From assembly GCF_001465795.2 (NCBI RefSeq), contig NZ_CP013659.2:1072501-1136500 (forward strand): a stretch of 64,000 bases of DNA, in the 5' to 3' direction. The DNA is from Planococcus rifietoensis. GTDB taxonomy: Bacteria > Bacillota > Bacilli > Bacillales_A > Planococcaceae. Position numbers and translations under genes: made by a program. The notes beneath the pieces were generated by a model. The model was not told the DNA's origin. It worked only from the letters and a program-made list of their open reading frames with translations, and searched no databases. Below are positions 2,882 through 55,937 of this stretch, one piece after another (position 1 is the first letter of the stretch; every line of letters starts with the position of its first letter).

Positions 2882-3107
2882 AGGCTTAAGGCACACTGGC
2901 GAAGCGGCGCTTTCTGCCGCACAGCCAGGGTGACTTAAGACCCCGAGGAGCTAGGCGCTGAAGCTAGACATCAAGAAAAGCTGAAGCTGCCTAGCGGAGG
3001 AAGCTAAGCTAAGAACGCGACGTCCTGTCGCAACGCTTAGCTGACCCACATCCTGTGGCCCTCTGACTGGCTTACGACCCGAGAGGCAGTCAGCTGAAGC
3101 TAGACAC
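2882..3107. repeat. Repeat family R1: chain of hairpins inserted between T-box terminator and thrS
   Basis: Two related units end in nearly the same tail, GCTGAAGCTAGACA (ending at 2970 and 3105). The first unit carries GCGAAGCGGCGCTTTCTGCC and is clearly related to 6156-6251 between rpmI and rplT. The second unit contains several hairpins: 3007-3042 (arms AGCTAAG/CTTAGCT), 3046-3059 (CCACA/TGTGG around a TCC loop) and a CTGACTG/CAGTCAG pair. No open frame is credible here. This makes the thrS leader about 340 bases longer after the terminator than usual. Confidence 0.8.
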
Positions 3108-9159: not shown

Positions 9160-9188
9160 AAGCCCGGCAGATGCCGGGCTTTTTTTAT
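9160..9188 (+). terminator. Terminator after ysdC
   Basis: AGCCCGGCA and TGCCGGGCT arms with a minimal loop, followed by seven T. Confidence 0.9.
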
Positions 9189-9300
9189 TGACTCCAGCAG
9201 CTTTCAGGACAGTAGCTTCTCATTGTGGCTGCAGGAAATTGGTTGGGGAATTACTGCGAAAATGACCTGCGAATCTTATGTAAAAAGATTGGAATAGCTA

Positions 9301-9440
9301 ACGCCACTCGACTGCGCGGAAGATGCTGCTTGCCGTGGGGCGGGTGTTGAGCCAAGGCGGAAGGGCACCGCCTTTGTCTCGCCAGCCCGCGCGGTCCCGC
9401 AGGCGTCAGCCCCTTCCGCTCCGTCTTTAAGTTGAGAGGG
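9301..9440 (-). repeat. Repeat family R3, copy 1
   Basis: On the minus strand it reads GCGGAAGGGG, GACGCCTGCGGGACCGCGCG, GGCTGGCGAGACAAA, a hairpin, then GGCTCAACACCCGCCCC and CGGCAAGC. Those blocks recur at 47651-47790. The internal hairpin has arms AAGGCGG (9354-9360) and CCGCCTT (9368-9374). Confidence 0.85.
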
Positions 9441-9674
9441 CAATGGTACATTTCACCACTTTCTCATTAGGAAGTATGAGAAAAGTATCTGCCTTGCCTA
9501 AGCAGGTCGGCTGATGGAATTAATTTTTGTAAAGTAAGTAGAATTGCTTTTTCGATTCTGCTTATCTTCTCAAAAAAGTCGCGTATTAACCAGTTAATGC
9601 CATCTTCAAAATTGTCATAAATACATTTGCTTCTGTCAATCTAATAAAAAAGCAGCCACGCGGTGCAGTACTAG

Positions 9675-9922
9675 ATGAAAAATCAACAGTGGGATTGAAA
9701 AGATTCCACAAGACAACTCCAGCTATTTTGGTCTATGCAAGAAGCGAGAAGCGATTCCCCCACTAGCCGGCAACTGACTATAGAAGCAGAACGATTTGAT
9801 CAAGCTATATACAAAGAAATCTCTCAGCCGCCCAGCGTCAAGGGTAAGCCGAAGCAATGAGACAGATGTTCTTTCTGGCTCATTGTGAAAGGCCAACCCA
9901 AAGCCGGGCGGCGACTAGCCAA
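9675..9922 (-). repeat. Structured repeat R2, unit A1
   Basis: First of two tandem units with a 248-base period, both starting ATGAAAAATC. A 31-base hairpin core lies at 9855-9885 (minus-strand outer arms CAATGAG/CTCATTG, inner arms CAGA/TCTG, loop AAGAACA). It is flanked by GC-rich segments that can pair (GCCGCCC/GGGCGGC). Confidence 0.88.
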
Positions 9923-10170
9923 ATGAAAAATCCTCTGAGACACAAAAACTATTCTACAAATAAACTCTAGCTAATTTTGTCTAAGCGAAAAGTGGGAAGC
10001 GATTCCTCCACTAGCCGGTAACTAACTATAGAAGCAGAACCGTTTGAACAAGTTATAAACAAAGAAATCTCTCAGCCGCCGAAGCGTCAAGGGTAAGGCA
10101 AAGCAATGAGACAGATGTTCTTTCTTGCTCATTGTGAAAGGCCAACCCAAAGCCGCCCAGCGACTTCTAA
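9923..10170 (-). repeat. Structured repeat R2, unit A2
   Basis: Second tandem unit, nearly identical to A1 over the distal 190 bases. Hairpin core at 10104-10134 with intact outer arms CAATGAG/CTCATTG and the same AAGAACA loop; the inner stem is slightly degraded. Confidence 0.88.
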
Positions 10171-10238
10171 TTAGACGTTCGAAGAAAGTTGATACACTTT
10201 CACACTTAACCATCAGGAAAAATATATGTTAGGTAAAC

Positions 10239-10267
10239 TTGACTTAATGTTAATTATACATTACATT
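10239..10267 (+). promoter_or_regulatory. Candidate promoter of the XRE regulator cassette
   Basis: TTGACT at 10239-10244, a 17-base spacer and TACATT at 10262-10267 in a very AT-rich tract. Short partly symmetric ATA/TAT runs around 10250-10288 could be an operator. Weak evidence. Confidence 0.4.
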
Positions 10268-10303
10268 ATGTTATATAAACTATACATGAAACGAGGGCTG
10301 CGG

Positions 10304-12298: not shown

Positions 12299-12549
12299 GA
12301 AATAAACAAGCGTTGACCGGGAAAAGTACGCAGTCCCCTGCATCCAAGGAAGTCCGCCCTCGACTGAAAGCGCGGATATGCAGGAACTCCGGAAGTTCAC
12401 CCCGCGAGCTGCTAGACGGGGACCGGCCGAGTGCCGTAAAGTCTAGCCGGTGATGAGCCGTTATTCAATGGAGTGATCGCCTACGCGCGATAACTAGGGT
12501 GGTACCGCGAATCAATGCCTCGTCCCTTTTTGGGGGCGGGGCTTTTTTA
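12299..12549 (+). promoter_or_regulatory. T-box leader of pheST
   Basis: T-box AGGGTGGTACCGCG at 12496-12509, followed by a terminator hairpin at 12517-12549. The Stem I specifier region contains AGTTCACC, with TTC (Phe) at 12396-12398. The equivalent position in the valS leader reads TGTCACC. It senses uncharged tRNA-Phe; mechanism known from the family. Confidence 0.92.
12517..12549 (+). terminator. T-box terminator before pheS
   Basis: GCCTCGTCCC pairs with GGGGCGGGGC (one G-U), followed by TTTTTT. Confidence 0.85.
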
Positions 12550-30120: not shown

Positions 30121-30363
30121 AAGTGATGATAGAGGAGCGGACGTCAATAGTATGCATTCCGAGATTTGCAGAATCTGTGAAGGATGCCGAAAGGGACGCC
30201 CGCCGAAGTTTATGCGCACTGCTTGCGTGTATGCTGGTCCTGCATTTAAGAAATGCAGGGCTGTCAGAGTTTGACTCTGGAGGGCTATCTCACATGGACG
30301 TTTGAAATCGTACATGAGAAGAGAGGTAGCTTGCCGGGCAATCGGCGAGTTGCCTCTTTTTTG
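30121..30363 (+). promoter_or_regulatory. Lysine riboswitch with intrinsic terminator (L box)
   Basis: Aptamer at about 30121-30295 with the L-box blocks GATAGAGGAGCGGAC, AATAGTATG, CCGAAAGGGACGCCCGCCGAAG, GGTCCTGCAT and ACTCTGGAGGGCTATCTC. The terminator stem at 30323-30363 (GAGGTAGCTTGCCG with CGGCGAGTTGCCTC) runs into TTTTTT. Lysine binding favours the terminator and shuts off lysC. The function follows from the RNA class. Confidence 0.93.
30323..30363 (+). terminator. Riboswitch-controlled terminator before lysC
   Basis: A long imperfect stem followed by a T-run. Part of the lysine riboswitch expression platform. Confidence 0.85.
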
Positions 30364-38659: not shown

Positions 38660-38733
<74 letters not shown>

Positions 38734-47120: not shown

Positions 47121-47340
47121 GTGAGCGAGATGAATGGCTCATCGGTTATTTCTTCATAAAGTAGTCGCCTCCCGCTTGGGGCATGCCTCCCACAATAAGC
47201 CAAGAAGAACACTTGTCTTATTGCTCCGGCTTGCCCATGTGCGCGGTTCGGCTTTTAGATTTCATTGGATATTGCGTGCGAAAACGTGTCATTATTAGTT
47301 GGTTTCATCCGCTGGTAGGGACACCTAGCTGGACTTGATA
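47121..47340 (+). repeat. Structured repeat R2, unit B1
   Basis: Homologous to the units at 9.7-10.2 kb but inverted. Hairpin core at 47193-47223: outer arms CAATAAG/CTTATTG, inner arms CAAG/CTTG and loop AAGAACA. Shared flanks are CGCCTCCCGCTTGGGGCATG before, CGGTTCGGC after and TAGCTGGACTTGAT at the end. Confidence 0.88.
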
Positions 47341-47557
47341 GTGAGATAAATCGGCCGATGATTATTTCATCGTAAAGCTAGCCGCCTCCCGCTTGGGGCA
47401 TGCCTCCCGCAATAAGCCAAGAAGAACACTTGTCTTATCGCTTCGGCTCGCCCGTATGCGCGGTTCGGCTTTTAGATTTCATTGGATGTTGGATGCGAAG
47501 AAGTGTCACTGTTAATTGTTTTTATCCGCTCTTGGCGACGCTTAGCTGGACTTGATA
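47341..47557 (+). repeat. Structured repeat R2, unit B2
   Basis: Second tandem unit, highly similar to B1 (period about 220). Hairpin core at 47410-47440 with the same arms and loop, one mismatch in the outer stem. Confidence 0.88.
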
Positions 47558-47650
47558 ATTATAGAGAAGTTCTGTGATCAGTTCAATTTGAATTTACGAA
47601 GATGATTAAAGTGTTTCACACTTGCTTAAGTGTATGATGAATTATATTTC

Positions 47651-47790
47651 CCCTCTAAAATTAGAGATGAAGCGGAAGGGAGGCGACGCCGGAGGGACCG
47701 CGCGGGCTGGCGAGACAAATGTGCCGCGTACTTTGGCACATTGGCTCAACACCCGCCCCTCGGCAAGCGTCCTCCCTGAAGCGCAATCTC
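47651..47790 (+). repeat. Repeat family R3, copy 2
   Basis: Shares CCCTCT, AGCGGAAGGG, GGACCGCGCGGGCTGGCGAG, ACAAA, GGCTCAACACCCGCCCC and CGGCAAGC with the minus-strand copy at 9301-9440. Its internal hairpin is AATGTGCC (47718-47725) with GGCACATT (47735-47742), unrelated in sequence to that of copy 1. Confidence 0.85.
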
Positions 47791-55690: not shown

Positions 55691-55937
55691 AACAGGATAT
55701 TGATGCGTTGATGAGGATAGTAAAGTGTCCGGGACATTTCAGAGAGGGAGCCGAGTGGTGAGAGGCTTTCATGTTCCGCATTTGAATGTCACCTCGGAGC
55801 AGTTGCCGTGAAATGAGTAGCGGGAACCGGATGCGAATCCGTTATCGAACTTGAGAGCCAGGCGCAATTCTGCCTGTGTATAAAGGTGGTACCGCGAAAA
55901 ACTCCTTCGTCCTTTACGAGACGACAGGAGTTTTTTT
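55691..55937 (+). promoter_or_regulatory. T-box leader of valS
   Basis: T-box AAGGTGGTACCGCG at 55883-55896, followed by the terminator at 55899-55937. Specifier segment AATGTCACC with GTC (Val) at 55788-55790, parallel to AGTTCACC in pheS. It senses uncharged tRNA-Val. Confidence 0.92.
55899..55937 (+). terminator. T-box terminator before valS
   Basis: AACTCCTTCGTC pairs with GACGACAGGAGTT, followed by a T-run. Confidence 0.85.

Follow-up and report, generated by a model that had tools for sequence, protein, structure and literature searches.

The window analysed here is a stretch of 64,000 nt from Planococcus rifietoensis (G000:C1:1072501-1136500, within a one-contig genome of 3.5 Mb; G000 denotes the organism's own genome). 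The HemA protein of this genome shares 99% identity with its counterparts in several Planococcus species, including P. citreus DSM 20549. At 9675-10170 the window contains R2, which consists of two tandem units with a period of 248, seen both in the sequence and in matches to the covariance model R1, for which 78 of 122 distinct cores were used. An earlier note on this DNA had described two units of this period sharing a 31-base hairpin, and the model matches at 9812-9914 and 10060-10163 bear this out. A second array lies at about 47 kb. We refer to the repeated module as R, and to the strand that probably folds as its RNA sense. The features of the two arrays are as follows.

9326..9445, plus strand: P module, a separate imperfect palindrome of ~120 nt (L001:1152-1271), which accompanies most arrays of the genome
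9746..9811, plus strand: 5′ half of R block 1, with a GNRA-like mini-hairpin GAA-GCGA-TTC and a ACTAGCCGGCAACT...AGAAGCAGA motif (from the sequence)
9812..9914, plus strand: R unit 1, core hairpin of ~104 nt, probable RNA sense plus (model R1, 116.1 bits, E 3.6e-33)
9855..9885, plus strand: 31-base inner hairpin of unit 1 as previously described, CAATGAGACAGATGTTCTTTCTGGCTCATTG on the plus strand (sequence and arm pairing)
9915..9993, plus strand: S, the poorly conserved spacer separating the R blocks (mean between-species identity 0.64 for the 75 nt beside the first core at 10 other loci)
9994..10059, plus strand: 5′ half of R block 2, mini-hairpin and motif as in block 1 (from the sequence)
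10060..10163, plus strand: R unit 2, core hairpin of ~104 nt, probable RNA sense plus, one inner pair broken (model R1, 84.8 bits, E 3.1e-23)
10104..10134, plus strand: 31-base inner hairpin of unit 2 as previously described (sequence and arm pairing)
47165..47267, minus strand: R core hairpin, copy 1 of a B-type array with period 217 (96.9 bits; tandem repeat)
47379..47484, minus strand: R core hairpin, copy 2 of the B-type array (99.1 bits; tandem repeat)
47646..47770, minus strand: P module of the 47 kb array (L031:2026-2150)

A protein-coding repeat was rejected by reasoning, since neither 247/248 nor 217, the periods seen, is divisible by three. An origin from a group II intron or an attC site was considered and dropped. 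The window also holds RNAs of known type: a Bacillaceae-1 RNA (2993-3059), two T-boxes (12304-12530 and 55699-55917), a lysine riboswitch (30122-30295), and a tRNA (38660-38733). None of the five Rfam matches in the window overlaps 9675-10170 or 47121-47557. Likewise, 0/8 Rfam matches up to E = 1 on 9160-10300 overlap 9675-10170, and seven loci from relatives gave no Rfam match. The search of Rfam 15 is thus in line with the previous suggestion that the hairpin belongs to no named RNA family.

Fold and covariation of the R core

The full fold is an interrupted hairpin of ~104 nt, and the conserved unit comprises 104 positions and 27 pairs. Read in the RNA sense, it begins with the foot (GCCGCC/GGCGGC in type A arrays), followed by GC/GC, GGGU/ACCC, GCC/GGC, and an internal loop GAN/NRRA. 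The inner part is an 8-bp stem, e.g., GCAAUGAG/CUCAUUGC, which an A.G mismatch separates from a 4-bp stem closed by a variable loop. In a first alignment (A1), 93.9% of cells pair and double changes occur in 15 of the 27 pairs. A shuffling test of covariation gave 138 double-change cells in A1, compared to a mean of 38 after shuffling (0/500 shuffles). When the structure is shifted by 1-3 columns, 26-44% of cells pair. For a second alignment (A2), 41 loci from beyond the close relatives were searched, giving 79 copies (E up to 1e-7). A2 is 91.6% paired, with double changes in 22/27 pairs, and it was aligned to model R1 and so is biased towards the model; its foot helix pairs poorly (72%). Double-change cells in A2 number 373 versus a shuffled mean of 124 (0/500; the shuffles of both alignments ignore relatedness), and shifted structures pair at 31-40%. 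At pair 48-127 of A2, 44 copies are GC, 28 are CG, and one-sided changes are zero.

The three compensatory arm changes that had been reported between R2 and the copies at 47.2 kb are real, but one pair is broken in each of two copies: an inner pair in the unit at 10104-10134 (AAGA/TCTG) and an outer pair in the second 47 kb copy (CTTATCG). The seven-base loop AAGAACA, reported as fixed, is identical in all four copies, but further copies carry AAGAGCA, AAGGACA, or AAGACCA, and the hairpin loop is more variable in other genera. The unpaired C and T had also been described as fixed. This C.T mismatch, which reads A.G on the opposite strand, is indeed steadier than the loop, as are the internal loops, but it is replaced by C-G in some copies. 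Copies from four genera retain the A.G mismatch as well as the GAN/NRRA internal loop.

Extent of the family and its arrays

BLAST searches of the own genome, in which 40 candidate regions were scored per query, gave at least 61 matches with R2 and at least 53 with the 47 kb array. A profile of the conserved ~104 nt, applied to stretches fetched around the BLAST matches, yielded 90 hits in 42 arrays, which is a lower bound for this genome. Counting split units and partial hits, 33/42 arrays have more than one hit. Spacings within arrays are mostly 242-249 (type A, as in R2) or 215-217 (type B, as at 47 kb), and the mini-hairpin with the ACTAGCCGGCAACT...AGAAGCAGA motif has an equivalent position in the A-type arrays among those listed. 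P adjoins the last R in equal orientation in 31 of the 42 arrays and is missing from the other 11. It has 35 matches in the genome, occurs with several alternative inner halves, and resembles palindromic repeats of other Bacillaceae genomes. At R2 the distance to P is 471 nt, compared to 223-333 nt in other arrays of the genome.

This arrangement bears on whether the arrays are stand-alone small RNA genes, each with its own promoter and with tandem units yielding a multivalent RNA. The single order and orientation of P beside R and the narrow range of most periods would suit such genes. A shared promoter upstream of P was not seen by eye, however, the 11 arrays without P would have to be accounted for, and solo copies (among those listed) lack such a context. 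We regard small RNA genes of this kind as very unlikely.

Other sequences are associated with the arrays. An insert, GCTCGCAGGATGCGAGTCATGCAGCTGATGCGACAGGACGTCGCG..CAGCTGCCC, recurs at several loci between a gene terminator and P, on the RNA-upstream side of P. Another repeat (...CATTTGCGACGCATCTGC..GCAGATGTGGGAGCAA) sits in the middle of the R core in two arrays (L090, G000:C1:3170011, and G000:C1:2345348-2346041). The region G000:C1:1.32-2.13 Mb is free of the 42 arrays, and a gap lies at about 1.40-2.34 Mb in the related genome G009 (among the matches listed). We dropped depletion at the terminus as an account of the 1.32-2.13 Mb gap: the contig starts with two ORFs that read as glgB/glgC-like, and the origin was not located.

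With R2 as the BLAST query, 11/40 genomes matched, own included, all within the genus. Model R1 matched all 46 genus genomes, own included, with 2 to at least 87 matches each; 87 candidates were scored per genome, so that high counts are lower bounds. Across the order, R1 matches were found in 90/261 genomes and 5/19 genera (46 genomes in the genus, 39 in genus g19, which is probably Sporosarcina-like, and five in three further genera). At the class level 13/299 genomes matched, all 13 in one family, which makes up part of the 299. All matches at the order and class levels are confined to one family, and a covariance-model search of relatives, as had been recommended, matched 52/200 genomes within it. 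Seven genomes of other genera, picked for having matches, contain 12 to 103 copies, and some other genomes of the order contain as few as one. The number of R copies per genome extends from few to about a hundred, and they stand alone or in arrays.

The arrays also vary in architecture. In other species R occurs solo (L200, L201) or as direct tandem repeats with a spacing of about 155 (L068) or about 208 (L227). In genus g19 the orientation of R alternates in all eight matches of L228 and mostly in L216 (10 matches) and L331 (nine matches). The arrays of L228, L216, L202, and L331, with alternating or mostly alternating R at steps of about 200 nt, resemble BIME clusters.

Several families of interspersed repeats invite comparison. 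BOX elements of Streptococcus pneumoniae have the structure boxA-(boxB)n-boxC, and excerpts of their description show them to be modular, intergenic, folded, and high in copy number, with a middle module that is absent or repeated; they are over-represented between convergent genes and turn over slowly (PMC3049150). R arrays have a BOX-like modularity, i.e., P plus 1 to 5 or more R units, with a unit number that varies between species. They differ from BOX in host group and in that the R module is itself a structured core of ~104 nt, found solo in other species. BOX is likened here by description, whereas for R we show covariation across genera and maintenance of pairs at shared loci. REP, BIME, and REPIN sequences are likewise numerous extragenic imperfect palindromes, with alternating clusters in some genomes (PMC3733652); their palindromes are 20-40 bp, whereas the R unit has 104 positions, is not found beside Y1 transposase genes at the 30 loci searched, and forms direct tandem arrays of nearly fixed period. 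The bcr1-bcr18 elements of the Bacillus cereus group, given in partial text as 100-400 bp long, about half of them transcribed and some with conserved secondary structure (PMC3446304, PMC6542083), are also interspersed repeats of a Bacillales group. By description they are set apart as elements of the cereus group, whereas R was found only in another family. The stem-loop families of Cozzuto et al. (2008), e.g., Bhal-1, Efa-1, and Bant-1, are repeated and intergenic and share a common predicted stem-loop; compared by description, they differ in that the excerpted text names no Planococcus or Sporosarcina (PMC2267715). Among the papers listed in searches of open-licence PMC text, none describes the R repeat in Planococcus or Sporosarcina. 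R is new as a family and is of the BOX/REP/bcr-like interspersed kind; it is a real, family-restricted structured repeat that was apparently undescribed. Its spread looks like old mobile-repeat biology. The view that R is not a degenerate transposon remnant is correct insofar as the copies are not simply degenerating, but they do belong to a high-copy interspersed repeat with modular neighbours.

Shared loci and maintenance of the fold

Stretches of 400 kb from G000 and from G009 were aligned; identity in the 40 longest aligned blocks is 81-93%. With coordinates mapped onto collinear blocks by hand, 11/13 G000 arrays and 11/12 G009 arrays have place and orientation in common. Of the 11 arrays in common, 10 differ between the species in hit number (partial hits included). 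The mean identity of units is 0.915 within an array (46 comparisons) and 0.845 across species (56 comparisons). In this one species pair, arrays are homogenised and their unit number changes, and most positions are shared. One site has R in G009 and P without R in G000.

Single loci can be followed further among relatives. At the hemA site, R1 matches were found in 10/69 relatives, out of 80 retrieved: L099-L106 have 1 to 5, L107 has one weak short match, and L112 has a solo copy. In L114 just the 12-base foot AGCGCCGAAGCG occupies the place of the complete copy of L112; this is compatible with deletion between direct repeats and with insertion, and a clean target duplication was not seen. The gene downstream of R2 is present in 43/46 genus genomes. 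Thirty loci with this gene were searched, and R is present at the R2 site in G000, G004, and G023. In G060 a short fused remnant at the gene junction reads as a deletion. The other 26 of the 30 loci gave no R match, and the upstream sequence differs in 9/26 (those aligned, among those listed). As G060 seems to have lost R2, this copy is dispensable, and a fixed essential RNA at R2 was rejected because of the apparent deletion at the same gene junction. At single loci, then, R is lost by deletion.

Where R is retained, its pairs are retained as well. Helices 2-3 were scored at 10 shared G000/G009 arrays, the remaining one of the 11 lacking a full unit in G000. We used the best-matching pair of units, a choice that favours similarity. 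Among 24 changed pairs, 12 were kept by a double change, eight were kept with a single change, and four were broken. A neutral simulation with an equal number of changes gave means of 0.85 double-kept and 24 broken pairs, and 0/20000 runs reached the observed values. Over all 55 cross-species comparisons at 14 loci, which are non-independent, 24 pairs were double-kept, 44 single-kept, and 22 broken, and the change per site was 0.056 for paired and 0.145 for unpaired positions. In first units the core is 0.846 identical between species, compared to 0.643 for the adjacent spacer (10 loci); in last units the values are 0.814 for the core and 0.712 for the next 70 nt (10 loci). Compensated variants could also be imported through gene conversion between loci. 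Paired mutations seem to maintain the fold where the copies sit. Selection on the fold, which the earlier note had proposed, is well supported by covariation across many genomes and by pairing retained at shared loci.

The same pattern might arise with no selection if the arms of the quasi-palindrome correct each other mutationally by template switching, or if gene conversion copies compensated variants. Homogenisation within arrays is real, as seen above, and double changes are frequent whereas few intermediate states occur. If the arms corrected each other, mismatches should disappear, but four genera still have copies with the A.G mismatch and the GAN/NRRA loop. Mutual correction of the arms is therefore unlikely to be the whole story. 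The core is also better conserved than the spacer, and we consider an origin of the pattern in the absence of selection improbable.

A greater share of our doubt goes to a REP/BIME-like DNA element, in which a hairpin in single-stranded DNA or a cruciform would be recognised by a transposase, recombinase, or nucleoid protein. The alternating arrays of genus g19, the few one-sided changes in A2 (pair 48-127), and the conserved mismatches, as in a DNA hairpin, are all consistent with such an element. The distribution of a RAYT-like Y1 transposase is consistent with it in part. Y1 was found in 29/46 genus genomes, one gene being broken, and 18/46 have no intact gene. All six genomes with five or fewer R copies are without an intact Y1, whereas 28/40 of the others have an intact gene (Fisher test, p 0.002). 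A Mann-Whitney test of copy number against Y1 gives p 0.015, and both tests ignore relatedness. Against this, a 70-contig draft genome with at least 87 R copies lacks an intact Y1. No R1 match lies within ±1.5 kb of Y1_Tnp at 30 loci (of at least 39 matches), and this neighbourhood does not support RAYT as the partner of R. The Y1 gene of the own genome is, by eye, flanked by a different short repeat of its own, GTCCCTGTGC..ACACAATT. Finally, most of the compared arrays are at shared places, so that present-day transposition does not explain the maintenance of pairs there. We regard a DNA element as possible but somewhat doubtful.

At the Y1 locus of the own genome, L273:1471-2076 (G000:C1, about 2.169 Mb) holds a single-copy RAYT-type Y1 with several flanking GTCCCTGTGCnCnACACAATT repeats in both orientations. 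By eye, the arrangement resembles a classical REP-RAYT system, here in a Gram-positive bacterium.

Folded strand, placement, and possible function

The minus strand had been taken as the folded strand at R2, and wobble counts mostly point to the opposite one. Read on the strand named in the earlier note, the 122 cores contain 85 A.C and 25 G.T; in A1, read in the opposite (RNA) sense, there are 70 G.U and 26 A.C (42 versus 13 rows). G.U makes up just 3.4% of cells in A1, and a higher share is expected of an RNA. A2 as a whole goes against the RNA-sense reading, with 32 G.U versus 49 A.C (21 versus 39 rows). Much of this contrary excess is contributed by the foot helix, which is poorly aligned, and by a single pair in 15 rows; helices 2-5 alone have 21 G.U versus seven A.C. 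Folding energies are also divided. The core alone folds at -12.8 kcal/mol on the previously named strand and at -25.8 kcal/mol on the opposite strand. Whole P-T-R elements give -77.6 versus -65.6 and -58.0 versus -56.0 kcal/mol, which slightly favours the previously named strand and counts against the RNA-sense reading. In A-type units the GAA-GCGA-UUC mini-hairpin forms a GNRA tetraloop in the RNA sense only. We conclude with moderate confidence that the folded strand is the plus strand of the window at R2. The assignment to the minus strand was thus probably mistaken, although part of the wobble and the folding of whole elements favour it. A single-stranded DNA hairpin also predicts a bias of G.T over A.C; from sequence, RNA would be the better guess for the selected form.

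Both neighbouring genes could be called in 40 of the 42 arrays of the own genome (ORF-based gene calls). None of these 40 arrays lies between divergent genes, compared to 19.7% of gaps in a 400-kb stretch (p 2e-4), and 15/40 lie between convergent genes, compared to 18.5% of gaps (p 0.004). Among co-directional gaps, the genes and the RNA strand run in one direction in 17 cases and in opposite directions in eight (p 0.054). The upstream gene is on the RNA strand in 32/40 arrays. At 8/40 places, the 47 kb copy among them, the RNA strand runs antisense to the genes on both sides, which counts against a transcribed element. So does the avoidance of promoters, which is also seen in parasitic repeats: in excerpts on pneumococcal repeats, an equivalent placement is read as tolerance of parasitic repeats (PMC3049150).

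Our preferred reading, held tentatively and at somewhat short of even chances, is that R2 represents a single locus of an interspersed structured repeat, modular and family-restricted, that most likely acts as RNA past gene ends and that once spread non-autonomously. The selected form would be single-stranded and strand-specific, most likely an RNA read from the plus strand of the window at R2. R may act as a local structural element in transcripts that run beyond gene ends, where candidate roles are a barrier to read-through, a stabiliser of 3′ ends, or a substrate for a double-strand RNase. Its earlier spread would have been that of a non-autonomous repeat. A more specific proposal is that R forms a family-wide class of structured RNA in Planococcus and its relatives, retained in dozens of intergenic copies because each folded copy is recognised at gene ends by a dedicated protein or ribonuclease, and that the tandem arrays are multivalent binding sites. 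This would be a genome-wide landmark system of RNA (or single-stranded DNA) that is not known from elsewhere, and we think it unlikely.

Interspersed repeats in bacteria have often been read as old parasites. Individual copies of R can be tracked from species to species at one site, with double changes preserving their pairs as the spacers drift, which makes the usefulness of such repeats testable in situ. One genus suffices for tests of this kind, as all 46 of its genomes that were searched carry R. A large structured family that is absent from Rfam 15 also affects the annotation of non-coding sequence in Planococcus and its relatives.
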